The position numbers and the translations under genes were made by a program. A stretch of 64,000 nucleotides of DNA from an uncultured Bacteroidales bacterium (GTDB lineage: Bacteria > Bacteroidota > Bacteroidia > Bacteroidales > P3), in the NCBI GenBank assembly GCA_947168515.1, contig CAMVMF010000011.1:1-64000 (forward strand), read 5' to 3'. Below, piece by piece: positions 9,308 through 57,468 of this stretch. Position 1 is the stretch's first letter; every line of letters begins with the position of its first letter. Under the pieces are notes generated by a model. It was not told where the DNA came from. It made no database searches and was given only the letters and a program-made list of their open reading frames with translations.

Positions 9308-9619
9308 AAAGGTAAAAACTAAAAACTAAAAGGGTGGACGGGGCCGTTGAGAATGGAGAATGTAGAATTGAGAATTGAGATTTTTTTAAAGGTAAAAACT
9401 AAAAACTAAAAAGGTGGACGGGGCCGTTGAGAATTGAGAATTGAGATTTTTTTAAAGGTAAAAACTAAAAACTAAAAGAGTGGACGGGGCCGTTGAGAAT
9501 GGAGAATTGAGAATTGAGAATGGAGAATTGAGAATTTTTTAAAGGTAAAAACTAAAAACTAAAAAGGTGGACGGGGCCGTTGAGAATGGAGAATTGAGAA
9601 TTGAGAATTGCAATCCCAT
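9308..9619. repeat. Tandem array of ~66-87 bp units (aaaggtaaaaactaaaaactaaaa...gtggacggggccgttgagaat[t/g]gaga...)
   Basis: four unit starts at 9308, 9388, 9454, 9541; unit length varies with number of AATTGAG/AATGGAG sub-repeats. Confidence 0.85.
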
Positions 9620-38980: not shown

Positions 38981-41900
38981 TTATCTTACCACGAGTTTCT
39001 TCACCAGGTTCACACGCTCACCCGTGATCTTGACGAAGTAAGCACCCTGGGCCAGGTTGGCTACATCCATGGTCTTCTCGCAGTCGGCGTTGCACTCGAG
39101 GGTCTCGGTGGCAACAGTGCGGCCGTTGATGTCGACCACTGCAATGCGTACCTTGCCATTGACGCCGCTGACGCTGATGGTGGTAACGTCGCTGGTGGGG
39201 TTGGGGTAGATGGTGCAGAGGGCATCGCCAGCCACATCCTCTATGCCCTCGGTGCCGTCGGCGGCAAAGGTGGCGGTGAGGGTGATGTTGGCAACCACGG
39301 TGAAGGTGTAGGGATTATCCGTCACGCCGTTGCTCCAGCTGACGAAGTGGTAGCCGCTGTTGGGCGTGGCCGTAACGGTGCAGCTCTGGCCGGCGCGGAA
39401 GGTGCCGCCGCCGGTGGCAGAGCCCATGGCAGCGTCGTTGACATTGACGGTGACGGTGTAGGTGGGATCGGAGGCTGCGGGGGTGGTGGCAGAGACGTGT
39501 GCCCAGCCCTCGCTGTTCCAGTCGGTGCCGCAGATGGCACGGACGTAGAAGTCGTAGGAGCTCTCGTCTTCGAGACCGGTGACCACGTAGGTGTTGACGT
39601 TGGTGGTGACACTAGTGCCGGTGCCCTGGGCAAAGCCGGCGAAGCCGTACTCAATCTGCCAGCTCTCGGCCATGGGGTCGGCGGTCCAGCTGAGGGTCAC
39701 GCTGCTTTCGGTGACATTGCTGGAGGTAAGCCCGGTGACATCGGGGCAAGTGGCAGTGGTGAAACGAATGGTGTCGCCATAGTCGCCTTCGATCAACTCA
39801 ACACCGCAGATGGGACGGATGGCAGCGTTGTAGGTAACGCCGGCCGTGAAGCCACCCACGGTGGCAGGATTGGTGGTGACGCGGTAGACGGAGTCGAGAC
39901 CGCCAGTGTTCCACACATGGATGTCCCACACGCTTTCGTTGCCGCGGACCGTCCAACTGAAGGTACCCTGGACGTTGGTCAAGTCGCTGACCACAAGGCT
40001 GTCGGGTGACAGGCAGGGCAGGCTGTCGGTGACAAAGCTTCCCTCATACCATTCGCTGTAATCGTTGCTGTCGGCCGTGCAGTCCTGACGCACACGGAAA
40101 GTATAGGCCGTCTCGGGATTCAGGCCCGTGAAGGTATAGGTAGTACCCGTCACAGCAATATCCGTAGAAGGCCAGTTGATGGCAGAGGTTTCCTTGATGT
40201 TCACCTCGTAGTTGCTGCCAGTGCCGTTCCAAGTGATGGTGGCAGAATGGTAGTCGTGGGTCTCGGAGGTGATGATGGGCACTGTGCAGAAAGTACCAGA
40301 GCAGGAAACCAGCTGGGTGACGGGGCGCCACGATGCTATATCCATGAGGTCATCGAACGATGAGGGACTGGTGGGACTGGGGTCGTCATCGTCGGAGTAG
40401 TAGTAGAGGGTCTTGCTACCGGAGCAGGGAGAGGTCTTGAAGACATAGGAACTACCGTCATAATCGCCGGAGTTGTCGTCGACAATAATCATCAGGTTGC
40501 TGAGGCCATTGTAGCTGTAGACCGTGTCGAGACGGAAGAAGTTCCAACCTTCCTGACAGTTGAGCGAACCTGTGTAGACCCTTACGGCAGAGGAATCAAG
40601 TGCCACAGCACTGGAGGTGCTGGCAAAGGTGCTCAGCGTGGTGGGCTGGAAGTAGATGGTGCAGTTGGTCTTGAGGGTCGAGGGAGAACTGTAGTCATAG
40701 TAGTAGCCTATGTACTCGATGTCCATCGGTCCGCCTATCTCGGCACTGTCGATGATGGTCTCGGTGAGGGTGTAGTTGTAGTAGTTGTTCAGCGGAGCGT
40801 AGTAGGTGGTGGTGGCGGAGCTGGTCGATCCGATGTCTACTGTCATGGTGTTGTCGCACATGGCAGTGATCATTGGGGTGGGATAATACCAGCGGGCTGT
40901 GTCGCCCACGCTGCAGATGGGACGCACATATACGTCATAGTTGGTCAACGTGTCCAAACCTGTAAGCATCACAGGGTGAGCGGTCACTGTCATGGCGGTG
41001 CCGGCGGCAGACCCGCGGGTGTAGCCCTGCGGACCATACTCTATCTGCCACTCGTAGGCGGAGGTGATGTCCGTCCAGTCGATGGTGATGGTGCTGGTGG
41101 TGGCAGCGGTAGCGTGCACATCGCGAGGCGCAATGCAGGTGGGTATGTAGTCGAGGGTGAAGTCGTCCACGTAAGCATACCACGAGCTAGAGGGTCGGTC
41201 GGCCTTGACGGCCACATACTGGCCGGTGCCGGCATACAATGCCAGAGGCACCTCGACGTTCTGCCAGGTGGTGCCGGTGATGGTCACGGTGTCGACACCC
41301 ACAAAGGAGGTAATGTCGTTGGGGTCGGTCATGACGCCAATTTTGAAAATGGGGACGTATGAGGACGAAGAAGCCTTGGCCCAGAAGCTCAACTGCAGCG
41401 TGCTGGCGCTGATGGTGGAATCCACCGGAGGCAGCACGACGCACTGGTAGTCGCCGTAGGTGCCCATAGTGGTGGTGTTGTACCAGTAGAGTCCTTTGGT
41501 ACCACTCGGGGTGTGGTTGTAGCTGGAGCTGCTGCTGACGTAGGGGTAACCGCCATAGCTGGTGCCGTTGTTCAGGCGGTACCAGCAGTTGACAAAGGCA
41601 CTGCCCGTGCTGCTGCTGCCCGTGGAGTATGACTCAAAGTCCTCGGTATAGGGCAACGTAATGTAGCCACATGGGGTACGGAAGTTGTAGGTCAACCAGA
41701 AGCTGCTGTTGGAGTCGTCGCAGACCGAACGCACCTTGAAGGTGTAGGTCGTGTTGGGGCTTAGGCCTGTGATGGAGGCAGTGGTGTCGTAGACGGTGTA
41801 TATCGAGTCGGAACCCAGCTGGTACTGCCATTCCGTGGCGTTGCCAGCCTCATGCCACTCAAAGTCGGCAGAGGTCTGCGTCAGGTTGGAGATGGTGAGG

Positions 41901-44900
41901 CCCGTGGGTCGGGAGCACACCAGGCGCATGATTTCGACATTGTCGATGGCGATGGGAGGTTGGTTGGTGACAGAACCGTCGTTGCGCCACACGAAGAGCA
42001 TGTGGTACACACCTGCGTTGGGGACACTGATGACGTCGCTCTGCGTCCGCCAAGTGCTGTTGAGATTGAGCTTGGTATTGCCGTCGAGCGAAATCCAGTC
42101 CGAAGGCATGGCACTAGCGCTCAGGCCAGAAGGCAGGGCGGTGCCGGCACTGAAAGATTGCGACACCGGCACCAGGGCGGCACGGAGGAAGTCGAAGGTG
42201 CTTTCGCCCTGGCACTTCCAGTCAAAAGAGTAGCCGTAATCGCCGGGAGCACTCAGCATCAGGTCCACATAGGCGTAAACTACCGAGCTGCTGGCTCCGT
42301 CATAGTTGTTGGTGGAACCGTTGGTGTTGGAAATGTAGAGGCCGTGGCCGCCGCCATTGTGGGCAGCGGTGCCAACGTACCACTTATTGGTTACTGAGCC
42401 GTTCTCCAGAATCCACAGATTATTCTGAGTCGTGTTCTCAAAGTTGCACACAAAGGGGAGTCCGACGTATGAGTTGGCAGTGCGATAGGAGGCAACGACA
42501 ACACCGCCAATGCCACTGGCGCAGTCGGGTGACACATACACGTCATACAGTGTGTTGGCGGTCAGGCCAGTGATGGTGTAGGGCAGCGATGTAACCGAAA
42601 CGGTAGTACCCGCACTGGAGCCTGGGGTGAATCCGGCAGGGCCATACTCCAACGTCCACGAAGTGGCAGTGCCCATCTCGGTCCATGTAAGCGTCAGGTA
42701 ATTGGAGTCGATGGCCGTGAGCGTGAGGTTGTCGATAGACGGACAATCGGGCGCATACTCCACGGTCAGGTCGTCGAGGTAGGGATAGCTGTATTCGCCG
42801 CTGGGCGACATGATGGCTATGCGGGCGCCGGGGGTGGTGTCCACATAGTTGGCAAAGGAAACCGTGAACTCTTCCCACGCAGAGAGAGCCGAGTTCTGCA
42901 CCGTGTCGATGGGGACGAAGGTGCTCTCGTCGTTCTCATTGGTGATCACACCCACGATGAGGCGGTGGTTGTAGGAGGTGTTGGTCTTATACAGCCAGAA
43001 ACGCACCTGCAGGGAGTCGATGGTAGGCTCAAAATCGGGCAGCACCATATAACTCCATGTGGTACTGGTAGAATACATATACAAGGCCTTGCTGCCACCA
43101 GGGTTGTGGTTGTAGCTGGTGGAGGCGTAGGGGTAGCTGGTGGAGTAGTTGGTCTTTTTATACCAGCATTGGGGCAACGGGTCGGCAGTAGAGCTGGACC
43201 AGGTGTCGAAGCCCTCAGTGAAAGGCACGGAGGCAGGCAGACAGGAAGTGTGGAAGGAGGTGTAGGCCGTACCGCCTATGCCATCAGCACAGTCGGTGGT
43301 GACATACACGTCGTAATTGGTGTTGGGGGTCAGGCCGACGAGGTTGACTATAGTGTCATAGGCATAGATGGTGTCGCCAGCACCGTCAGCAAAGCCGGAA
43401 GGTCCCATCACCAGGGTCCAGCTGGTGGCATCGCCCTGCTCTTCCCACTTGATGTCGGCGGAGTAGCCGGTAATATTGATGGCAGCCAGATTGTCGACAG
43501 GCGGACAGTCCGGTATGTACTCCACCGTCAGGTCGTCGAGGTAGGGATAGCTGTATTCACCGTTGGGCGACATGATGGCTATGCGGGCGCCGGGGATGGT
43601 GTCCACATAGTTGGCGAATGAAACCGTGAACTCTTCCCACGTAGAGAGAGCCGAGTTCTGCACCGTGTCGATGGGGATGAAGGTGTTCTCGTTGTTTTCG
43701 GCGGTGATCACACCCACATAGAGGCGGTGGTTGTAGGAGGTGTTGGTCTTATACAGCCAGAAACGCACCTGCAGCGAGTCCAACGAGGGCTCGAAATCGG
43801 GCAGCACCATATAACTCCATGTGGTACTGGTAGAATACATATACAAGGCCTTGCTGCCACCAGGGTTGTGGTTGTAGCTGGTGGAGGCGTAGGGGTAGCT
43901 GGTGGAGTAGTTGGTCTTTTTATACCAGCATTGGGGCAACGGGTCGACAGTAGAGCTGGACCAGGTGTCGAAGCCCTCGCTGAAAGGCACAGGATAGGCC
44001 CCACAGCTGGTGTGGAAGGTGATGTAGGCCGTACCGGCAACGCCGCTGGGACAGTCGGGGATGACATACAGGTCATAGTTGGTGTTGGGGGTCAGGCCGA
44101 CGAGGTTGACTATGGTGTCGTAGACATAGGTGGTGGTGCCAGTGCCGAGGGTGAAACCGGCAGGTCCCAGCTCTACGGTCCAGCTGGTGGCATCGCCTAT
44201 CTCCTCCCAAGCGATGTCGGCGGTGGTACCGGTGATACTGACAATTTCCAAATTGTCAACAGCCGGGCAGTCGGGTATGTACTCCACCGTCAGTTCGTCG
44301 AGGTAGGGATAGCTGTATTCGCCGTCGGGCGACATGATGGCTATGCGGGCGCCGCTAATGGTGTCCACATAGCGGTCCATCGGTATGGTGAACTCCTCCC
44401 ACGTGGAGGTGGTAGAGTTTTGCACCGTGTCCACGGGGACGAAGGTGGTCTCGTCGTTCTCATCGGTGATTACGCCCACGATGAGGCGGTGGTTGTAGGT
44501 GGAGTTGGACTTATACAGCCAGAAACGCACCTGCAGCGAGTCGATAGTAGGTATAAATTCGGGCAGCACCATATAGCTCCATGTGGTATTGGAAGAATAC
44601 ATATACATGGCTTTGCTGCCGCCGGCATTGTGGTTGTAGCTGGTGGAGGCATAAGGATAGTTGGTAGAATAGTTGGTCTTTTTATACCAGCAGTCGGGCA
44701 GCGGGTCGGCAGTAGCGGTGGACCAAGTGTCGAACCCCTCGTGGAAAGGCACGGGCGTACCTCCACAATGGGTACGGAAAGTGATTTGGGCGGCTATATT
44801 GGTGTCGGAGCAGAGCGACATCACACGCACCACATAGTTACTGTTGGCCTGGAGGCCGGTGATGGTGTAATCGGTAGCGGTGACCGCCATGGCAGCATTG

Positions 44901-47356
44901 GTCCAGGCGGTGTCCGTAGACAAACGATAGTCCACATCCCAGGTGGTCTCCTGATAGCCCGGAATCCAAGAGATGGAAACATCATTGGCATGGATGCTGT
45001 CGATAGCAATGCTGGGAGCGGCACAGTCAACCGTCTGCAGACAGGTGCCGCCGCCGTTGCCGCCAGTGGTCAGGCGCATATTGGTGCGCCAGTAGGAGTC
45101 CGAGGCCGTGGCCGCGGCCATATCGGCTAGAGTGTAGGGCGCATTGGCGCGGTAGACGCGGTGAGTCATGGAACTCGAAGTTTGCTGGTAGCGGAAGAGG
45201 GCATTCGGCTCCAGCGCACCGCTGTTCTTCACAATGGCCACCATGATGTTGCTGGTGCCGTTGTAGGCGAAGGTACCCCGGTTGAACTCGAAGTGGTTCC
45301 ACCCGTTAGTGGTGCAAATGATGGGACCCTCATATACCAACTGCAGGTCGGCCACAGGGGCAAAGGCGGTGCAGGTGGCCATGGTGGTATGGCACATATA
45401 AATGGAGCAGTTGACGGTGGACGTCATGGGCGAAGAACTGCCATAGTCGAAGTCGATGCCGCTGAAATAGACGGCACCACTGTTCACCTCGGAGGCCAAA
45501 ATCAGGTGGTTGCAGTAGGAGTAGTTGTATTCGCCGTTGACCGGCATCACGTTGTTGGTGCTGGTGCCGGGGGTGCCGACAGCGTAGGTTTCTGCCGGGC
45601 TGGAGCCGCCTCCCCCGCTGGTGGTGTCCCACTCCAGGCAGGGCAGCGCGGCAGTGCTGAAGACCCTGGTGAGGGGCTGGCCAAAGCCACCGTCGCCGCA
45701 GTTGGGCGTTACGGTGACGGTGTAAGAGGTGTCGGGGTCAAGACCGTTGAGTATGTAACTGAGGCTGTTGGTTGTCACCGTGGTGGGCGTGCCAAGCGTG
45801 TCATCGGTATAGCGATAGCTCAGCTCGAAATAGTCGGGAGCAAAGCCCAATTGGTCGGAGTAGTCCCAAGAGACGCGTGCTGCACCCACAGTGGCAGCCA
45901 CATTAAGCTCGGTCATCCGGGGGCAGGTGGGAGCAAGTTCGAGGGTGACATCATCCAAGTACACATACCACGAACTAGCGGGACGGAGGGCACGGATGGC
46001 CACGTAGCAGCCCGTGTCGGCGTAGGTGCCCAGGGGCACTTCGTACTCGGCGTAGACAGCGGAGTTGCCCACATTGACCGTGGACACCAGCTCAAAGGTA
46101 CTGTTGTCGTTGGGATTGGTCAGCACACCCACCTGCAAGACGGGGCTGTAGCTGGTGGAAGAGGCCCGGGCCCAGAAACGCACCTGCAGGGTGCGGATGG
46201 GGTTGTAGTTGGTGTCGACACCCGGCATCACTATCGTCTGGTAGTCGCCATAGGTGCCAGTGGTGGTAGTGTTGTACCAATAGAGGCCTTTGTTGCCGCC
46301 AGGGGTGTGGTTATATGTAGAAGAAGAACTGACGTAGGGGTAACCACCTGAGGAGGTGCCGTTGTTTAGGCGGGTCCAACAGTAGGCAAAGGGGCTGCCA
46401 GTAGTGCTGCTGCCCGTGGGGGAATCCTCGAAGTCCTCAAAGAAAGGCAACGAATCTAAAAAGGTGCAGGGCGTGCGGAAACTCGACGAGAGCCACATGC
46501 TGGTGTCGCCAGCATCGCACAGCGACGCCACACGCACATTGTAGGCCGTGTTGGCGGCGCGACCCACGACACTGTACATAGTGTCGTACACCACCGAGGA
46601 GTCGATGGCCGCTCCGGCGGAATCGACATACACCAGCCAGCTGCTGGCGGTGCCAGCCTCCGTCCAAGAGACATCAAACGAGTGAGGCAATACATTGGCA
46701 AACTGCAGGTTGCTCGGACGCGGACAGGTGGGCTGCTCGAAAATAATGTTGTCGATGGCACCCGGAGGGGTGGTACCGCCGCTGGCATCGTTGGCCCAGG
46801 CAAAAACCAAACGGTAGGTGCCGGGGGCCAACACGGTGAATTCCTCAAAGTGGTTCTGCCAATTGGACTGCAAGTTCAACCTGTTGGCCCCGCTGAGACT
46901 GATAAAGCCCGACGGGAGAGAGGCCGTACTCCAGGTGTTGGTACTAGTGCCGCCCGTAGGGTCGGTACCAGGATTTGGGGTGAAGGTAGACGGGGCCAGG
47001 AATACTCTGATGTAGTCCCAGCTGCTCTCGCCATAGCACTTCCAGTCGTAGCTGATGGCATAGCCGCCGGCACTGAGGGTGAATTCCTTGTAGGCATACG
47101 CAAACGTCACCGTAGAAACGGTGTAGGCGTTTGACGTGCCACCGTTGTTGGAGATGTAAAGGCTCTTGGAGCCTCCGTTGCTTGTGGCGGAGCCGATGAA
47201 CCACTGGTTGGTCTGGCTGCCGTTCGCAAACACCCATCCCGCGGTGTCGCTGTCGCTCTCGAAGTCGCACGAGAAGCTAAACGACTGACCTTGAGTTGCC
47301 CACGGCACAGCCAGCATGGCGGCCAAGAGCAATAGTCTTAGTAGATGTTTAAACAT
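38981..47356 (-). CDS. Giant modular T9SS type A surface protein (paralog A)
   Basis: 2791 aa; signal peptide; repeated choice-of-anchor J/FN3 modules; T9SS type A C-terminus. Confidence 0.85.
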   Translation of the reverse strand: MFKHLLRLLLLAAMLAVPWATQGQSFSFSCDFESDSDTAGWVFANGSQTNQWFIGSATSNGGSKSLYISNNGGTSNAYTVSTVTFAYAYKEFTLSAGGYAISYDWKCYGESSWDYIRVFLAPSTFTPNPGTDPTGGTSTNTWSTASLPSGFISLSGANRLNLQSNWQNHFEEFTVLAPGTYRLVFAWANDASGGTTPPGAIDNIIFEQPTCPRPSNLQFANVLPHSFDVSWTEAGTASSWLVYVDSAGAAIDSSVVYDTMYSVVGRAANTAYNVRVASLCDAGDTSMWLSSSFRTPCTFLDSLPFFEDFEDSPTGSSTTGSPFAYCWTRLNNGTSSGGYPYVSSSSTYNHTPGGNKGLYWYNTTTTGTYGDYQTIVMPGVDTNYNPIRTLQVRFWARASSTSYSPVLQVGVLTNPNDNSTFELVSTVNVGNSAVYAEYEVPLGTYADTGCYVAIRALRPASSWYVYLDDVTLELAPTCPRMTELNVAATVGAARVSWDYSDQLGFAPDYFELSYRYTDDTLGTPTTVTTNSLSYILNGLDPDTSYTVTVTPNCGDGGFGQPLTRVFSTAALPCLEWDTTSGGGGSSPAETYAVGTPGTSTNNVMPVNGEYNYSYCNHLILASEVNSGAVYFSGIDFDYGSSSPMTSTVNCSIYMCHTTMATCTAFAPVADLQLVYEGPIICTTNGWNHFEFNRGTFAYNGTSNIMVAIVKNSGALEPNALFRYQQTSSSMTHRVYRANAPYTLADMAAATASDSYWRTNMRLTTGGNGGGTCLQTVDCAAPSIAIDSIHANDVSISWIPGYQETTWDVDYRLSTDTAWTNAAMAVTATDYTITGLQANSNYVVRVMSLCSDTNIAAQITFRTHCGGTPVPFHEGFDTWSTATADPLPDCWYKKTNYSTNYPYASTSYNHNAGGSKAMYMYSSNTTWSYMVLPEFIPTIDSLQVRFWLYKSNSTYNHRLIVGVITDENDETTFVPVDTVQNSTTSTWEEFTIPMDRYVDTISGARIAIMSPDGEYSYPYLDELTVEYIPDCPAVDNLEIVSITGTTADIAWEEIGDATSWTVELGPAGFTLGTGTTTYVYDTIVNLVGLTPNTNYDLYVIPDCPSGVAGTAYITFHTSCGAYPVPFSEGFDTWSSSTVDPLPQCWYKKTNYSTSYPYASTSYNHNPGGSKALYMYSTSTTWSYMVLPDFEPSLDSLQVRFWLYKTNTSYNHRLYVGVITAENNENTFIPIDTVQNSALSTWEEFTVSFANYVDTIPGARIAIMSPNGEYSYPYLDDLTVEYIPDCPPVDNLAAINITGYSADIKWEEQGDATSWTLVMGPSGFADGAGDTIYAYDTIVNLVGLTPNTNYDVYVTTDCADGIGGTAYTSFHTSCLPASVPFTEGFDTWSSSTADPLPQCWYKKTNYSTSYPYASTSYNHNPGGSKALYMYSTSTTWSYMVLPDFEPTIDSLQVRFWLYKTNTSYNHRLIVGVITNENDESTFVPIDTVQNSALSAWEEFTVSFANYVDTTPGARIAIMSPSGEYSYPYLDDLTVEYAPDCPSIDNLTLTAIDSNYLTLTWTEMGTATSWTLEYGPAGFTPGSSAGTTVSVTSLPYTITGLTANTLYDVYVSPDCASGIGGVVVASYRTANSYVGLPFVCNFENTTQNNLWILENGSVTNKWYVGTAAHNGGGHGLYISNTNGSTNNYDGASSSVVYAYVDLMLSAPGDYGYSFDWKCQGESTFDFLRAALVPVSQSFSAGTALPSGLSASAMPSDWISLDGNTKLNLNSTWRTQSDVISVPNAGVYHMLFVWRNDGSVTNQPPIAIDNVEIMRLVCSRPTGLTISNLTQTSADFEWHEAGNATEWQYQLGSDSIYTVYDTTASITGLSPNTTYTFKVRSVCDDSNSSFWLTYNFRTPCGYITLPYTEDFESYSTGSSSTGSAFVNCWYRLNNGTSYGGYPYVSSSSSYNHTPSGTKGLYWYNTTTMGTYGDYQCVVLPPVDSTISASTLQLSFWAKASSSSYVPIFKIGVMTDPNDITSFVGVDTVTITGTTWQNVEVPLALYAGTGQYVAVKADRPSSSWYAYVDDFTLDYIPTCIAPRDVHATAATTSTITIDWTDITSAYEWQIEYGPQGYTRGSAAGTAMTVTAHPVMLTGLDTLTNYDVYVRPICSVGDTARWYYPTPMITAMCDNTMTVDIGSTSSATTTYYAPLNNYYNYTLTETIIDSAEIGGPMDIEYIGYYYDYSSPSTLKTNCTIYFQPTTLSTFASTSSAVALDSSAVRVYTGSLNCQEGWNFFRLDTVYSYNGLSNLMIIVDDNSGDYDGSSYVFKTSPCSGSKTLYYYSDDDDPSPTSPSSFDDLMDIASWRPVTQLVSCSGTFCTVPIITSETHDYHSATITWNGTGSNYEVNIKETSAINWPSTDIAVTGTTYTFTGLNPETAYTFRVRQDCTADSNDYSEWYEGSFVTDSLPCLSPDSLVVSDLTNVQGTFSWTVRGNESVWDIHVWNTGGLDSVYRVTTNPATVGGFTAGVTYNAAIRPICGVELIEGDYGDTIRFTTATCPDVTGLTSSNVTESSVTLSWTADPMAESWQIEYGFAGFAQGTGTSVTTNVNTYVVTGLEDESSYDFYVRAICGTDWNSEGWAHVSATTPAASDPTYTVTVNVNDAAMGSATGGGTFRAGQSCTVTATPNSGYHFVSWSNGVTDNPYTFTVVANITLTATFAADGTEGIEDVAGDALCTIYPNPTSDVTTISVSGVNGKVRIAVVDINGRTVATETLECNADCEKTMDVANLAQGAYFVKITGERVNLVKKLVVR
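42740..44760 (-). repeat. Three tandem ~762-bp (254-aa) modules inside paralog A
   Basis: P[VI]PF.EGFDTWSS.T.DPLP.CWYKKTNYST.YPYASTSYNHN.GGSKA.YMYS repeated; matching positions about 762 bp apart. Confidence 0.85.
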
Positions 47357-47443
47357 AACAATTTAGTATTTAATTAATAAAAGATATATGAATGATTTTT
47401 GAAGCCATCCTTATAAATTATCAAGTACCCAATGTTTATATTT

Positions 47444-47615
47444 GGCTCTAGTTTAATATAAGACTGATTTTTTACAGCCTCGAAGAGGCTGAATCTCAGT
47501 AACACCGTACAAGCGTAGCGCAGTGCGGTGACGGAATAAACTCACTCCTAGCGTCCCGAAGGGACGCGACATTGAGACCGTTTGGCAAAAATTAGTCATA
47601 TGTTGTACTAGAGCG
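47444..47615 (+). mobile_element. MITE-like element copy B (172 bp)
   Basis: one mismatch to copy A by eye; perfect 8-bp TSD TTATATTT at 47436-47443 and 47616-47623. Confidence 0.85.
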
Positions 47616-48139
47616 TTATATTTTCAGTTACATACAATCCATAAAACCATCAAACCGAACCTCCGTAAAGGCACACCAAAAATAAAAAAAAAAATTCATC
47701 CGACCCTATATTTCGCAGAAAATTAACATATATATTTGCACTTTTAATTCCTGTGTATCTTTTTTACATTCATACAAATACGCACAACCCAAGCCTCCCC
47801 TGCCCCTCTCCAACCCATCACTTCTCCTTTACCCTACCCCACCTGCATGGGCTGGCAAACATTGCTGCCACAGCATTCCTGCCCCCAACAGCCGAGACAA
47901 AAAAGCAAAAAAAGCCATCTACCTCAGTTCAACACTATGCAGCGCTTTTACACCACAACCCCATCGGCACTTTCTGCGGAACAGTTCAGCCACACCCCAA
48001 CGCCATCCTGTGGCCCAAACCAGTGTAAAAACATCAGGCAACCACAAAAAAACACCCCGAAAGGCACACACACCACCAGACATACACGCAACCTACAGAA
48101 AACAAACAAGATACCACACTACATCACCTAGCCCCTCCC

Positions 48140-48300
48140 CTAGAGACCTCCATAACGTAGTGCAGAAAGCAGCCCCTAGCAGTTGCTCCGCTGCCCAACA
48201 GCGGGTGAAGAAGGCCTCCAGTGGAGGGCTTCGATAACGAAGTGGAGAAAGCAACCCTCCGCGGTTGCTCCGCTGTCAAACAGCGGTCCGCGGATTCGAA
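48140..48300. repeat. Degenerate tandem hairpin-rich repeats including a free-standing GAAGAA...CCAGTGG...TTCGATAACGAAGTGGAGAA module (48207-48250)
   Basis: ccgctgcccaacagcgg / ccgctgtcaaacagcgg and gcagaaagcagcccc / ggagaaagcaaccct repeated with substitutions. Confidence 0.7.
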
Positions 48301-48398: not shown

Positions 48399-48622
48399 GG
48401 CTCTAGTTTAATATAAGACTGATTTTTTACAGCCTCGAAGAGGCTGAATCTCAGTAACACCGTACAAGCGTAGCGCAGTGCGGTGACGGAATAAACTCAC
48501 TCCTAGCGTCCCGAAGATGAAGAAGAGCCAGTGGCTCTTCGATAACGAAGTACAACGAAGTGGAGAAAAAAAACGACATTGAGACCGTTTGGCAAAAATC
48601 AGTCATATGTTGTACTAGAGCG
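48399..48622 (+). mobile_element. MITE-like element copy C (224 bp, one hairpin module inserted)
   Basis: same ends as A/B; 57-bp segment 48517-48573 replaces the 5-bp GGACG. Confidence 0.75.
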
Positions 48623-48899: not shown

Positions 48900-51800
48900 C
48901 TAGCGCACAACAAGTTTCTTCACCATATTGACATTGTCGCCAGTGATCTTGACGAAGTAAGCACCCTGGGCCAGGTTGGCAACATCCATGGTCTTCTGGC
49001 AGTCGCTGCTGCACTCGAGGGTCTCGGTGGCCACAGTGCGACCGTTGATGTCGACCACGGCAATGCGTACCTTGCCATTAACACCACTGACGCTGATGGT
49101 GGTGACGTCGCTGGTGGGGTTGGGGTAGATGGTGCAGACGGCGTCGCCAGCCACCTCCTCGATGCCCTCGGTGCTGTCGGCAGCAAAGGTGGCGGTGAGG
49201 GTGATGTTGGCAACCACGGTGAAGGTGTAGGGATTATCCGTCACGCCGTTGCTCCAGCTGACGAAGTGGTAGCCGCTGTTGGGCGTGGCCGTAACGGTGC
49301 AGCTCTGGCCGGCGCGGAAGGAGCCGCCGCCGGTGGCAGAGCCCATGGCAGCGTCGTTGACAGTGACGGTGACGGTGTAGGTAGGATCGGAGGCAGCCGG
49401 GGTGGTGGCAGAGACGTGTGCCCAGCCCTCGCTGTTCCAGTCGGTGCCACAGATGGCACGGACGTAGAAGTCGTAGGAGCTCTCGTCTTCGAGACCGGTG
49501 ACCACGTAGGTGTTGACGTTGGTGGTGACACTGGTGCCGGTGCCCTGGGCAAAGCCGGCGAAACCGTACTCAATCTGCCAGCTCTCGGCCATGGGGTCGG
49601 CGGTCCAGTTCAGCGTCACGCTGCTTTCGGTGACATTGCTGGAGGTAAGCCCGGTGACATCGGGGCAGGTGGCAGTGGTGAAATGGATGGTGTCGCCATA
49701 GTCGCCTTCAAATTCATCGACACCGCAGATGGGACGGATGGCAGCGTTGTAGGTGACGCCGGCAGTGAAACCACCCACAGTGGCAGGATTGGTGGTGACG
49801 CGGTAGACGGAGTCGAGACCGCCAGTGTTCCACACATGGATGTCCCACCCGGTTTCATTGCCGCGGACTGTCCAACTGAAGGTACCCTGGACGTTGGTCA
49901 AGTCGCTGACCACCAGGCTGTCGGGAGTCAAGCAGGGCAGGCTGTCGGTAACGAAGGAGCCTTCGTACCATTGGCTGTAATCGTTGCTGTCGGCCGTGCA
50001 GTCCTGACGCACGCGGAAGGTGTAGGCGGTCTCGGGATTCAGGCCGGTGAAGGTGTAGGTAGTACCCGTCACGGCGATGTCGGTGGTAGGCCAGTTGATA
50101 GCGGAGGTTTCTTTGATGTTCACCTCATAGTTGCTGCCAGTGCCGTTCCAAGTGATGGTGGCAGAATGGTAGTCGTGGGTCTCGGAGGTGACGATGGGCG
50201 CGGGGCAGGAGACTCCCGAGCAGGAGAGCAACTGGGTAACGGTACGCCAAGAGACCGTACCCGTAGTACCCGAGAAGCCCGAGGGGTTCGTCACATCGGG
50301 ATCGTAAGTGTCGGAGTAGTAGTAGAGGGTCTTGTTGCCGGAGCAGGGCTCGGTCTTGAAGACGTATGAACTACCGTCATAGGCATTTGAGTTATCGTCG
50401 ACGATAATCAACAGGTTGGTGAGGCCGTCGTAGCTGTAAACCGTGTCGAGAAGGAAGAAATTCCATCCCTGCTGGCAGTTGAGGGCGCCAGTATACACCT
50501 TCACGGCAGAGGAATCAAGAGCCACGACACTGGAGCTACTGGCAAAGGTGCTCAGCGTAGTGGGCTGGAAGTAGATGGTGCAGTTGGTCTTGTCCGTCGA
50601 GGGGGAGCTGTAATCATAGTAGTAGGCTATGTATTCGATGTCCATCGGGCCACCGATTTCGGCACTGTCGATGATGGTCTCGGTGAGGGTGTAACGGTAG
50701 TAGTTGTTCACGGGTGATATGTAAGAGGTGCCCGTGGAACCAGCAGAACCGATTGCCACAATTTGCGAGTTGTCGCACATGACGGTGTTTAGTGTGGCAG
50801 GATAATACCAGCGGGCACTGTCGCCCACACTGCAGATAGGACGCACATATACGTCATAGTTGGTCAACGTGTCCAAACCAGTAAGCATCACAGGGTGAGC
50901 GGTCACTGTCATGCCGGTGCCGGCGGCAGACCCGCGGGTGTAGCCCTGCGGACCATACTCTATCTGCCACTCGTAGGCGGGGGTGATGTCCGTCCAGTCG
51001 ATGGTGATGGTGCTGGTGGAAGCAGCAGTAGCGTGTACATCGTGGGGCGAGATGCAGGTGGGTATGTAGTCGAGGGTGAAGTCGTCCACGTAGGCATACC
51101 AAGAACTAGAGGGCCGGTCGGCCTTGACGGCCACACAATGGCCGGTGCCAGTGTACGGTGTAAGATTCACCTCGACATGCTGCCAATTGGTACTGACGAT
51201 AGTCACAGTGTCTACACCCACAAAGGTGGTAACGTCGTTGGGGTCGGTCAACACACCAATTTGGAAGACGGGGGTGTACGAGGCCGAAGAAGCCTTGGCC
51301 CAGAAGCTCAACTGCAGGGTGCTGACGCTGATGGTGGAATCCACCGGAGGCAGCACGACGCACTGGTAGTCGCCGTAGGTGCCCATAGTGGTGGTGTTGT
51401 ACCAGTAGAGTCCTTTGGTACCACTCGGGGTGTGGTTGTAGCTGGAGCTGCTGCTGACGTAGGGGTAACCGCCATAGCTGGTGCCGTTGTTCAGGAGGTA
51501 CCAGCAGTCGACAAAAGCACTGCCCGTGGTGCTGCTGCCCGTGGAGGATGACTCGAAGTCCTCGGTGAAAGGCAGCGTGATGCTCCCACACAGCGTGCGG
51601 AAGGTATAGGTCAACCAGAAACTGTTGTTGGTGTCGTCGCAGACCGAGCGCACCTTGATGGTGTAAACAGTGTTGGGGCTTAGGCCTGTGATGGTGGCGT
51701 TGGTGTCGTAGACGGTGTATATCGAATCGGAACCCAGCTGGTACTGCCAGGTGGTGGCACTGCCCGCCTCCTCCCAACTGAATTCGGCAGTGGTCTGCGT

Positions 51801-54800
51801 CAGGTTGGTGAGGGTGAGGTTAGTGGGTCTGGTACAGACACTACGCAAGAATTCGACGTTGTCGATGGCGATGGGGGGCTGGTTGGTAACCGAACCGTCG
51901 TTGCGCCACACGAAGAGCAAGTGGTATACACCTGCGCTGGGAACATTGATAACGTCGCTCTGCGTCAGCCACGTGTCGTTCAGATTCAGCCTGGTGTTGC
52001 CGTCGAGCGAAATCCAGGTGGCAGGTATCGAGGTAGAACTCAGGCCTGTGGGCAGGGTGGTGCCAGCCGTGAAACTTTCAGTTCCCGGCACAAGGGCTGC
52101 ACGAAGGAAGTCGAAGGAACCCTCGCCGTGGCACTTCCAGTCAAAGATGTAGCCATATTCGCCGGGAGTGCTCAGCAGCAAGTCCACATAGGCGTAGGCC
52201 ACAGAGGCACTGGTGCCGTCGTATGCATTGGTAGATCCGTTGGTGTTGGAGATATAGAGACCGTTGGCCCCACCGTTTTGGGCAGCGGTGCCAATGTACC
52301 ACTTGTTGGTGACGGAGCCGTTCTCAAGTGTCCAGCAGCTGTTCTGTACGGTGTCCTCAAAGTTGCACACAAAGGGGAGTCCGATGTAGCTGTTGGCAGT
52401 TCGGAAGGTGGCACTGCGCGTCGCCGAGGCTCCCTCAGTGCAAACGGGAGTGACATAAATATCGTAATTGGTGTTGGGGGTCAGGCCGGTGATGGTGTAG
52501 GGCACGGCGGTGACCACATCAGTGGTACCACTACCGCGAGAGAAGCCCGCAGGACCATATTCAATATCCCAAGAGGTGGCGGTGCCGTTCTCCGTCCAGG
52601 TCACCGACAGCATATTGGTGTCAAGACCTGCTAAGGCAATGTTGCTGACCGGAGGACATGCCGGGATAGGTTCTACGGTGATATCATCAACAAAATAGTA
52701 CGTGGTCGTAGAGGGGTCGCGGAAGAACTTCAGCGCGATGTAGGCACCCGTGTCGGTGTAAGTGCTAAGGTAGGCCTCCTTCATGTCATAAACATCTCCG
52801 GCCACACTCACCGTGTCTACCGGCACAAAGGTGGAGTCCACGGTCGGGTCGGTCATCACACCCACCACGATGTCACCATCGGTGGTGGCGGAGTTCATCT
52901 TCACCCAGAAGGACACCTGAAGGGTGTTTGTCGGATGCAAGGTCGGGTTGATGGGGGGCAGCACACTGATAATCCAGTCGGCATAGGTGGTGGTGGTGGT
53001 GGGCATATAGTAGTAGAGGAAGCCTGTGCCGGTATGACCGCCAGTGGGCCAGGAAGAACGGGAACCCACATAGCCGAAGTGATAGGTGGTGGAATTGTCC
53101 AAACGGTGCCAGCAAGGCACGCCGCAGTCGGGAGGTGCGATGCTGCTAGCACCATCGGGATAGCTCTCAAAACTCTCGAAGTAAGGCAACGAGTCGATGT
53201 ATCCGCAGTTGGTGCGGAAAGAGTAGTAGGTCACGCCGGCAATGCCGCCGCTGCCGCAATCGGGTGTCACATAGACATCGTACAGCGTGTTGGACATAAG
53301 GCCGGTGATGTTGATGGTGGTGTCGTAGGCATAAACGGTGGTGCCGGTGCCGAGGGTGAAACCATTCACGCCGTACTCGACGGTCCAGCTGGAAGCATCG
53401 CCAAGCTCCTCCCAGATGATGTCGGCGGAACTCTGGGTGATGTTTGTTGCCCTGAGATTGTCAACAGGCAGACAGTCGGGCACATACTCTACCGTGAGGT
53501 CGTCGAGATAGGGATAGCTAGCCTCGCCGTTGGGCGACATGATGGCAATGCGGGCTCCGGGAATGGTGTCGGCATAGCGCGCCATAATAACGGTGAACTC
53601 CTCCCAGATGGACATGGCCGAGTTTTGCACCGTGTCGACGGGGATAAAGGTGGTCTCGTCGGTGGGGTCGGTAATTACGCCCACGATAAGACGGTGGTTG
53701 GCAGAGGCTGTCTTACGGAGCCAGAAACTCACTTGCAGCGAGTCGATGGAAGCGGCAAACTCGGGCAGCACCATATAGGAATATGTGGTGGCGGTAGAAT
53801 ACATATACATGGACTTACTGCCACCAGTACTGTGGTTGTAGGAGGTAGAAGCGTAGGGGTAGCTAGTCGTATAGTTGGTCTTTTTATACCAGCAATCGGG
53901 CAGCGGGTCGGATGTGACATTGGACCATGTGTCGAAATCCTCATAGAAAGGCACAGGGGTGGGACCGCAATCGGTGCGGAAAGTGATTTGGGCGGCTATA
54001 TTGGTGTCGGAGCAGAGCGACATCACACGCACCACATAGTTACTGTTGGCCTGGAGGCCGGTGATGGTGTAATCGGTAGCGGTGACCGCCATGGCAGCAT
54101 TGGTCCAGGCGGTGTCCGTAGACAAACGATAGTCCACATCCCAGGTGGTCTCCTGATAGCCCGGAATCCAAGAGATGGAAACATCGGTGGAATGGACGCT
54201 GTCGACCACAATAGAAGGAGCGGCACAGGAAGCCGTCTGCATGCAAATGCCACCGCCGCCAGTGGTCAGGCGCATATTGGTGCGCCACATGGAGTTGCCG
54301 GCTGTGGCTGTGCCCATATCGGCCAGAGTGTAGGGCGAATCGCTGCGATAGACGCGGTGAGACATGGAGGAACTAGTTTGCTGGTAGCGGAAAAGGGCAC
54401 CCGTCTCCAGCGCTCCGCTGTTCTTTACAATAGCCACTATGATATTGCTGGTGCCATCGTAAGCGAAGGTGCCTTGGTTGAACTCGAAGTGGTTCCACCC
54501 GCTAGTGGTGCAATTGATGGGACCTATGTAAACCAACTGCAGGTCCGACACAGGAGCAAAGGCGGTGCAGGTGGCCATGGTGGTATGGCACATATAGATG
54601 GAGCAGTTGACGGTGGACGTCATGGGCGAAGAACCGGCATAGTCGAAGTCGATACCGCTGAAATAGACGGCACCACTGTTCACCTCGGAGGCCAAAATCA
54701 GGTGGTTGCAGTAGGAGTAGCTGTAGCCGCCGTTGACCGGCATCACGTTGGTGGTGCCTGTGCCGGGGGTGCCAATTGGGTAAATGGCTTCAGGACTTGA

Positions 54801-56546
54801 TGGACCACCTGTGGTATCCCACTCCAGGCAGGGCAGCGCGGCAGTGCTGAAGACCCTGGTGAGGGACTGACCAAAGCCATTGTCGCCACAATTGGGCGTT
54901 ACGGTGACGGTGTAAGAAGTGTCGGGGTCAAGACCGTTGAGTATGTGACTGAGGCTGTTAGTTGTCACCGTGGTGGGCGTGCCCAGCGTGTCATCGGTAT
55001 AGCGATAGCTCAGCTCGAAATAGTCGGGAGCAAAGCCCAATTGGTCGGAGTAGTCCCAAGAGACGCGTGCTGCACCCACAGTGGCAGCCACATTAAGCTC
55101 GGTCATCCGGGGGCAGGTGGGAGCAAGTTCGAGGGTGACATCATCCAAGTACACATACCACGAACTAGCGGGACGGAGGGCACGGATGGCCACGTAGCAG
55201 CCCGTGTCGGCGTAGGTGCCCAGGGGCACTTCGTACTCGGCGTAGACAGCGGAGTTGCCCACATTGACCGTGGACACCAGCTCAAAGGTACTGTTGTCGT
55301 TGGGATTGGTCAGCACACCCACCTGCAAGACGGGGCTGTAGCTGGTGGAAGAGGCCCGGGCCCAGAAACGCACCTGCAGGGTGCGGATGGGGTTGTAGTT
55401 GGTGTCGACACCCGGCATCACTATCGTCTGGTAGTCGCCATAGGTGCCAGTGGTGGTAGTGTTGTACCAATAGAGGCCTTTGTTGCCGCCAGGGGTGTGG
55501 TTATATGTAGAAGAAGAACTGACGTAGGGGTAACCACCTGAGGAGGTGCCGTTGTTTAGGCGGGTCCAACAGTAGGCAAAGGGGCTGCCAGTAGTGCTGC
55601 TGCCCGTGGGGGAATCCTCGAAGTCCTCAAAGAAAGGCAACGAATCTAAAAAGGTGCAGGGCGTGCGGAAACTCGACGAGAGCCACATGCTGGTGTCGCC
55701 AGCATCGCACAGCGACGCCACACGCACATTGTAGGCCGTGTTGGCGGCGCGACCCACGACACTGTACATAGTGTCGTACACCACCGAGGAGTCGATGGCC
55801 GCTCCGGCGGAATCGACATACACCAGCCAGCTGCTGGCGGTGCCAGCCTCCGTCCAAGAGACATCAAACGAGTGAGGCAATACATTGGCAAACTGCAGGT
55901 TGCTCGGACGCGGACAGGTGGGCTGCTCGAAAATAATGTTGTCGATGGCACCCGGAGGGGTGGTACCGCCACTGGCATCGTTGGCCCAGGCAAAAACCAA
56001 GCGGTAGGTGCCGGGGGTCGACACGGCGAATTCCTCAAAGTGGTTCTGCCAATTGGACTGCAAGTTCAACTTGTTGGCTCCACTGAGACTGATAAAGCCC
56101 GAGGGAAGGGCGGCCGAGGACCAAGAATATGCGCTGGTGCCGCCCGCGGGGTCTTAGCCCGGTGTGGGGTTGAAGGATGAGGGGGCCAGGAACACCCTGA
56201 CGTAGTCGTAGTTGGACTCGCCATAGCACTTCCAGTCGTAGCTGATGGCATAGCCGCCGGCGCTGAGGGTGAATTCCTTGTAGGCATACACAAACGTCAC
56301 CGTAGAAACGGTGTAGGTGTTTGACGTGCCGTTGTTGTTGGAGATGTAAAGGCTCTTGGAGCCTCCGTTGTTTGTGGCGGAGCCGATGAACCATTGGTTG
56401 GTCTGGCTGCCGTTCGCAAACACCCATCCCGCGGTGTCGCTGTCGCTCTCGAAGTCGCACGAGAAGCTAAACGACTGCCCTCGGGTTGCCCAAGGCACGA
56501 CAAACATCGTAACCAAGAGCAAGAATCTGAGTAAATGTTTAAACAT
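48900..56546 (-). CDS. Giant modular T9SS type A surface protein (paralog B), interrupted by one in-frame TAA at 56154-56156
   Basis: ORFs 48900..56069 and 56154..56546 share a frame; untranslated gap reads *DPAGGTSAYSWSSAALPSGFISLSGANK, matching paralog A. Confidence 0.8.
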
Positions 56547-57205
56547 AACAATTAAGATTAAATTAATATAAAGATTATATGAAATGATTTTTAATTATTA
56601 TTTCAACCTATCAAAAAATAATCTAATAGTCATATTCTCAGTAATATACATTTTAAACATCGCTTCTATTGCCCCCTCAAAAAGGATTTTCAAAAGTAAC
56701 ATATTATTTTCATCTGAACAAATATTACGACCAGAATTAACATTCACTTTTGCAGCTTTAATACAAGTGTATCTTTATTACAATCAATAAATTCCACGTA
56801 TGGAAACTTCCAAAACATAACAAAACGCTGCTTATAGGCCACACCGTCCGCCACTATTTTTCACCCCATGCCACTCCACACGACATTGCCGTCTCTGACA
56901 GCTATGACAAAAAACTAAAATACAAAAGCAGCACCAGCCGCCTACGCTGAGACACTTTTTTTCGACAATTAGCCTACCCCTCTTTTTTCTCACCAATACC
57001 TTGAAAAAACCGCTGAGAACAATAGACCACACTTGCTAATTTTGCACTGCAATTTCTACATAGTTAAGTTACATTTATTTTATCGTTTATTTATGATTGA
57101 TAAGTAAACGATAATATAAGTATAATATAAATGAAGAGACAAAAAGGGCTTCCAGCGGAGGGACAGCGGGGGTCGCGACAGCGGTTAGTGGGACTACAAA
57201 AAAAT

Positions 57206-57468
57206 CGCTCTAGTACAACATATGACTGATTTTTGCCAAACGGTCTCAATGTCGTTTTTTTTCTCCACTTCGTTGTACTTCGTTATCGAAGAGCCACTGG
57301 CTCTTCTTCATCTTCGGGACGCTAGGAGTGAGTTTATTCCGTCACCGCACTGCGCTACGCTAAATTCTCCGCTTCGCTATCGAAAGTCCACTGGACTTTC
57401 TTCACAGTGTTACTGAGATTCAGCCTCTTCGAGGCTGTAAAAAATCAGTCTTATATTAAACTAGAGCC
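57206..57468 (-). mobile_element. MITE-like element copy D (263 bp, two hairpin modules inserted)
   Basis: reverse orientation; perfect 8-bp TSD AAAAAAAT at 57198-57205 and 57469-57476. Confidence 0.8.

Follow-up and report, generated by a model that had tools for sequence, protein, structure and literature searches.

Copy B, an element inserted upstream of giant paralog A in the 64,000-nucleotide stretch of an uncultured Bacteroidales genome analyzed here (the window), is best read as a non-autonomous IS1595 shell around a REP-like core and thus as the product of two mobile systems, a reading to which we assign a probability of roughly 0.78. This preference follows from the body of the element, which occurs independently of the shell, shows covariation, flanks a Y1 transposase gene and is also present in a second shell. 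Since the MITE body elsewhere flanks the gene of a different transposase, one of the type acting on single-stranded DNA, two unrelated mobile systems appear to have been fused. Judging by its sequence, copy B is a small and recently active jumping element. The outer shell, approximately 30 bp at each end, would originate from an IS1595-family insertion sequence (IS) whose transposase would act in trans and create an 8-bp duplication, and the inner 97 nt would represent a REP-like element, a core that a Y1 transposase of subclass 1.2 would have spread as single-stranded hairpin DNA. We infer mobilization by the IS1595 or the Y1 transposase as well as the order of capture, in which ends of the IS1595 type would have taken up one core, the chimera would then have been amplified, and copy B would have inserted upstream of paralog A, probably into its 5' leader, long after the two paralogs had split.

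The copy B insertion and its unoccupied paralogous site

The original prediction had placed a MITE with identical flanks at 47436-47623. The element is present and both flanks consist of the same exact 8-bp target duplication, TTATATTT, although the predicted span comprises these two repeats in addition to the element proper, which is 172 bp long (47444-47615; Table 1), starts with GGCTCTAG and finishes with CTAGAGCG. Its classification as a MITE was borne out by 19 complete copies with shared terminal inverted repeats, most of them with 8-bp duplications, and no open reading frame of at least 100 aa is found within it. As had been noted by eye, copies A and B differ at one base (C/T at element position 150), and copy B indeed lies upstream of paralog A, 87 bp before its ATG.

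Alignment of the two upstream regions, which had been proposed as a check, yielded a score of 81 for 47357-47790 minus the element against 56547-56800, whereas 500 shuffles reached 44 at most. When the left and right flanks were aligned separately, none of 1000 shuffles reached the score on either side, demonstrating that the regions are homologous. In this alignment TTATATTT|TCAG of paralog A faces TCATATTC|TCAG of paralog B, where TCATATTC is present in a single copy with neither element nor duplication, in agreement with the empty site that had been expected. Since the flanks of the paralogs have clearly diverged and copies at unrelated sites share 99-100% identity with the element, the insertion of copy B is much younger than the gene duplication, in line with the suggested insertion after, or independently of, this duplication, and this late arrival in turn indicates that the paralog B site represents the ancestral empty state. 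The alignment alone cannot separate such absence from a former presence of the element at paralog B followed by precise excision or gene conversion, but no remnant of a duplication accompanies the single TCATATTC, and this finding, together with the near-identity of the element to copies elsewhere and the divergence of the flanks, makes a loss highly improbable. An empty allele was seen in no strain; homologues in other species are too diverged to decide on an orthologous empty site, and ends like those of the MITE are absent near three distant and very diverged homologous loci (L213-L215). The predicted MITE and empty site thus stand, whereas the IS1595 partner, two extra copies in the window and the independent, structured, REP-like interior had been left out.

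In the genome, a fragmented assembly of 3.26 Mb in 112 contigs, the 19 complete MITE copies are accompanied by three that are cut at contig ends (G000:C2:131846-131897, C11:68118-68176 and C47:1-53). Assembly breaks follow the element and, because contigs end inside MITE copies, the true copy number should exceed the one counted. Eleven of the complete copies are 171-172 bp long, seven 224 bp and one 263 bp, a foreign hairpin replacing half of H3 in the longer copies and an additional one being present in H2 of copy D. Target duplications are exact over 8 bp at 14 of the 19 complete copies and match at seven of eight bases in two more; a clear duplication is absent at copy C and two others among the 19 examined. 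Of 58 same-genus genomes that were sampled in addition to its own, 29 contain the MITE as judged by DNA similarity, many of these matches covering only the core, and it was detected in none of 40 sampled genomes of other genera. A second hairpin repeat (CCAGTGG...CGATARCGAAG) occurs on its own close to copy C and as an insertion within hairpins of copies C and D; hairpins seem to have been exchanged between repeats. Directly after copy A, four imperfect repeats (GGTAAAAACTAAAAACTAAAA...GTGGACGGGGCCGTTGAGAATTGAGA) form an array at 9349-9610, and AT-rich text resembling this array flanks other MITE copies.

Table 1. Positions of copy B, its components and related features in the window.
Feature	Position	Strand	Basis or remark
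Left 8-bp target duplication, TTATATTT	47436..47443	.	exact match to 47616-47623
MITE copy B, 172 bp	47444..47615	+	one of 19 complete genome copies
Left terminal inverted repeat	47444..47472	+	common to IS1595-family element
REP-like three-hairpin core, 97 nt	47475..47571	+	covariance model R1, 101.9 bits, E 9.8e-21 (copy B core sequence type among the model-building sequences)
Hairpin H1, GAA triloop	47475..47491	+	alignment and covariation
Hairpin H2, internal loop, preceded by TAAC	47503..47530	+	last base of TAAC is first base of H2
Hairpin H3, GAA triloop	47551..47567	+	alignment and covariation
Right terminal inverted repeat	47587..47615	-	common to IS1595-family element
Right 8-bp target duplication, TTATATTT	47616..47623	.	
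Unoccupied paralogous site, TCATATTC, upstream of paralog B	56630..56637	.	upstream-region alignment
MITE copy A, duplication AAAGGTAA	9136..9307	+	
MITE copy C, 224 bp, foreign hairpin replacing half of H3, no clear duplication	48399..48622	+	
MITE copy D, 263 bp, foreign hairpins in H2 and H3, duplication ATTTTTTT	57206..57468	-	
Second hairpin repeat	48218-48242, 48528-48550	+	
Second hairpin repeat	57278-57300, 57372-57394	-	
Giant paralog A, 2791 aa, fn3 and MAM domains, Por_Secre_tail	38981..47356	-	
Giant paralog B, homologous in one frame, in-frame TAA at 56154-56156	48900..56546	-	
TTTG-N19-21-TANNTTTG match, upstream of paralog B	56691..56722	-	only match in window

A three-hairpin core associated with Y1 genes

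The single-strand fold of the MITE stands far above that of shuffled sequences (z -6.65 as DNA, -8.67 and -6.30 as RNA), and an unsupervised consensus fold of 43 cores from the own genome and same-genus genomes returned three hairpins, in which 11 of 22 pairs show double changes. With the structure named, these cores contain 92 compensatory double-change cells compared to 29.6 +/- 3.9 after shuffling, a number reached in none of 500 shuffles, and only 8-19 cells remained when the structure was slid; the cores had been collected by fuzzy matching of H1 and H3, which biases these two hairpins somewhat and H2 not. GNA triloops predominate in H1 and H3, and 40 of the 43 cores have TAAC ahead of H2. 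A strong fold and covariation are also compatible with a transcribed structured RNA or mRNA regulatory element whose position at Y1 genes is a by-product, and G.T pairs exceed C.A pairs on the core + strand by 38 to 12. However, this polarity shrinks to 19 versus 12 once a single pair is omitted and was rejected as too weak a proof of RNA function, an Rfam search of the window returned no match, and the copy number, the arrays, the occurrence in both orientations and the inverted pairs at Y1 genes suit a mobile repeat. We consider an RNA element unlikely and prefer the REP-like mobile core.

Our covariance model detected at least 113 cores in the own genome, most of them outside this MITE. Of 99 genomes sampled from the genus, the own one included, 78 contain cores, and within the order, from which 198 genomes were sampled, 37 do, with other families represented; the core counts in other genomes are lower bounds. 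A core private to this MITE was ruled out by these genome searches. Cores lie inside IS1595-type shells with several end variants and also inside a second, unrelated MITE shell with the ends ATGAYTATCCGC, for which direct repeats of 8-14 bp were found at 9 of 13 copies in a permissive search. This second shell encloses inserts of several lengths, approximately 160-330 bp, on contigs G000:C13, C22, C30 and C86, and no exact-end pair 1-2.5 kb apart was found that could represent its autonomous partner. Cores also occur in arrays and, near genes, in both orientations. One core (L075, G000:C28:30429-30525) lies within, and in phase with, an open reading frame of methylase-like sequence, which has an Eco57I match just under the Pfam cut-off and holds another repeated segment, ASERLNA.SANNPTQGTQC. 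In this position the core resembles the Rickettsia palindromic elements (PMC3733652, PMC10969869); in contrast to those elements, this is one in-gene case and most listed cores are not known to be in genes.

The genome contains one PF01797 gene, which encodes a Y1/HUH transposase of 149 aa (C95:5423-5872). This gene is preceded by a core at a distance of 45 bp and followed by an inverted one at 9 bp, an arrangement not expected by chance at a density of about one core per 29 kb. Among 71 Y1 loci of the genus (own included), which were picked from a score list and not at random, 70 have the motif Y---Q--HH, and no core was found at the one Y1 gene without it. Cores are present within 200 bp on both sides of 23 of the 28 Y1 genes whose products are nearest to the own protein (phmmer E below 1e-57) and on at least one side of 27, nearly always inverted; for the other 42 loci with the motif, the corresponding numbers are 3 and 14. 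The same core-flanked Y1 arrangement was found in a genome of another family (G218), and a missing Y1 gene in an incomplete genome was taken as no evidence. The association of Y1 gene and core is one of position. A Y1 gene with two flanking cores could alternatively be an ordinary IS of the IS200/IS605 type, with the dispersed cores as its solo ends, and subclass 1.2 lies near subclass 1.1, that of IS200. We judge this alternative a little less likely still than an RNA element: the genome has at least 113 cores but just one Y1 gene, and the two cores at its sides are inverted relative to each other, whereas the ends of IS200/IS605 elements are known not to be inverted repeats.

The own Y1 protein contains YIKGQKEHH and DHVH, and Y---Q--HH and DH[IV]H are motifs of subclass 1.2, for which the published table also lists a WQ motif (PMC6006769). 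This WQ motif is absent from the own protein, which reads ...GWAHEYAAF... at the likely place. Placed by its motifs, with WQ missing, the transposase would belong to subclass 1.2, with which it shares Y---Q--HH and DHVH, a length of about 149 aa, a low copy number and a Bacteroidales host (PMC6006769). A 2018 survey described TnpA Y1 of subclass 1.2 as generally without typical flanking structures (PMC6006769), whereas genes of the own type are flanked, in 23 of 28 cases, by conserved inverted three-hairpin elements that are not of the IS200 type.

Many dispersed hairpin repeats, present here in at least 113 copies, are likewise found in the REP/BIME/REPtron systems with TnpAREP (RAYT) (PMC6006769, PMC8266576, PMC3733652), and, as in the REPtron, the only Y1 transposase gene lies between inverted copies of the repeat family. 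REPs are palindromes of 20-50 nt that follow a conserved tetranucleotide, mostly GTAG (PMC8266576). In contrast, the core comprises three hairpins in about 100 nt, has no GTAG tag and carries TAAC before H2, and its transposase has the Y---Q--HH of subclass 1.2, not the class 2 motif of TnpAREP. The core may act as the components of a REPtron do, but it does not qualify as a classical REP. No account of a subclass 1.2 REP system or of REP-bearing MITEs was found in the literature searched. We lean towards the broader proposal that in Bacteroidales the Y1 transposases of subclass 1.2 operate an unrecognized REP-type system of approximately 100-nt, three-hairpin elements, and that at least two unrelated shells captured these elements, giving rise to chimeric MITEs with two independent mobility routes. 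The core would thereby provide a candidate substrate for a transposase subclass described without one, making its biochemistry directly testable, and the MITE a concrete escape of REP-like repeats from their own single-copy transposase by means of a conventional shell with clean 8-bp insertions.

The IS1595 shell and its candidate helper

Using the conserved MITE ends, we found a 1118-bp IS that is present twice in the genome (G000:C8:12594-13711 and C21:46847-47964, which differ at two bases). Its ends match those of the MITE, and its intact 353-aa transposase belongs to the IS1595 family (NCBIfam NF033547, 184.5 bits; Pfam PF12762 match). The left terminal inverted repeat of copy B agrees with the C21 copy at 29 of 31 bp, including two bases inside. 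The IS1595 family produces target duplications of 8 bp. Similar to MITE derivatives of IS1595 insertion sequences, the MITE shares its ends and 8-bp duplication with the family, is non-coding, occurs in many copies and has a putative helper transposase in the same genome. Thus, the 1118-bp element is likely the helper of the MITE, although the case for these two IS copies as the active helper is weakened, since a comparison of the flanks of each revealed no 8-bp duplication.

Shared ends and duplications would equally fit an ordinary MITE, that is, an internal deletion derivative of IS1595 with a passive interior and no second mobile system. However, BLAST of the MITE interior against both IS copies gave no significant match outside the ends, which ruled out leftover IS sequence, and the interior shows compensatory changes; moreover, the core is found without these ends at many places and flanks Y1 genes. 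An ordinary MITE is already largely refuted by these results and appears less probable than either an RNA element or an IS200/IS605-type IS. Different from known IS1595 MITE derivatives, the body is a separate structured repeat and not IS sequence, as the reading of an IS1595 shell around a REP-like core proposes. No cores were found near IS1595 transposases of other organisms in 12 loci covering 72 kb.

The giant paralogs and the putative leader

Both giant paralogs are T9SS-type surface proteins. The Bacteroidetes promoter consensus, TTTG-N19-21-TANNTTTG, has one match in the window compared to a mean of 0.21 in shuffles. At the paralog A counterpart of this match (approximately 47677-47708) the downstream box is kept and the upstream box is not. 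Since this aligned promoter region is located beyond the MITE, on its far side from the start codon, copy B probably lies in the 5' leader mRNA of paralog A, in which its minus strand would be read as a stable fold, and an effect on paralog A expression is plausible. If the hairpins are part of the leader mRNA and affect paralog A, the paralog pair would offer a matched occupied/empty comparison for the effect of a hairpin leader on the expression of a giant secreted protein.

The in-frame TAA of paralog B (minus strand) falls near codon 131, and because the rest of this frame is homologous to paralog A, either a recent pseudogene or an error in the assembly seems likely. The region 32263-63987 holds four giant minus-strand tandem genes with nearly identical C-terminal ends (84-92% at the DNA level), and paralog A contains internal 762-bp repeats at 42726-44790.
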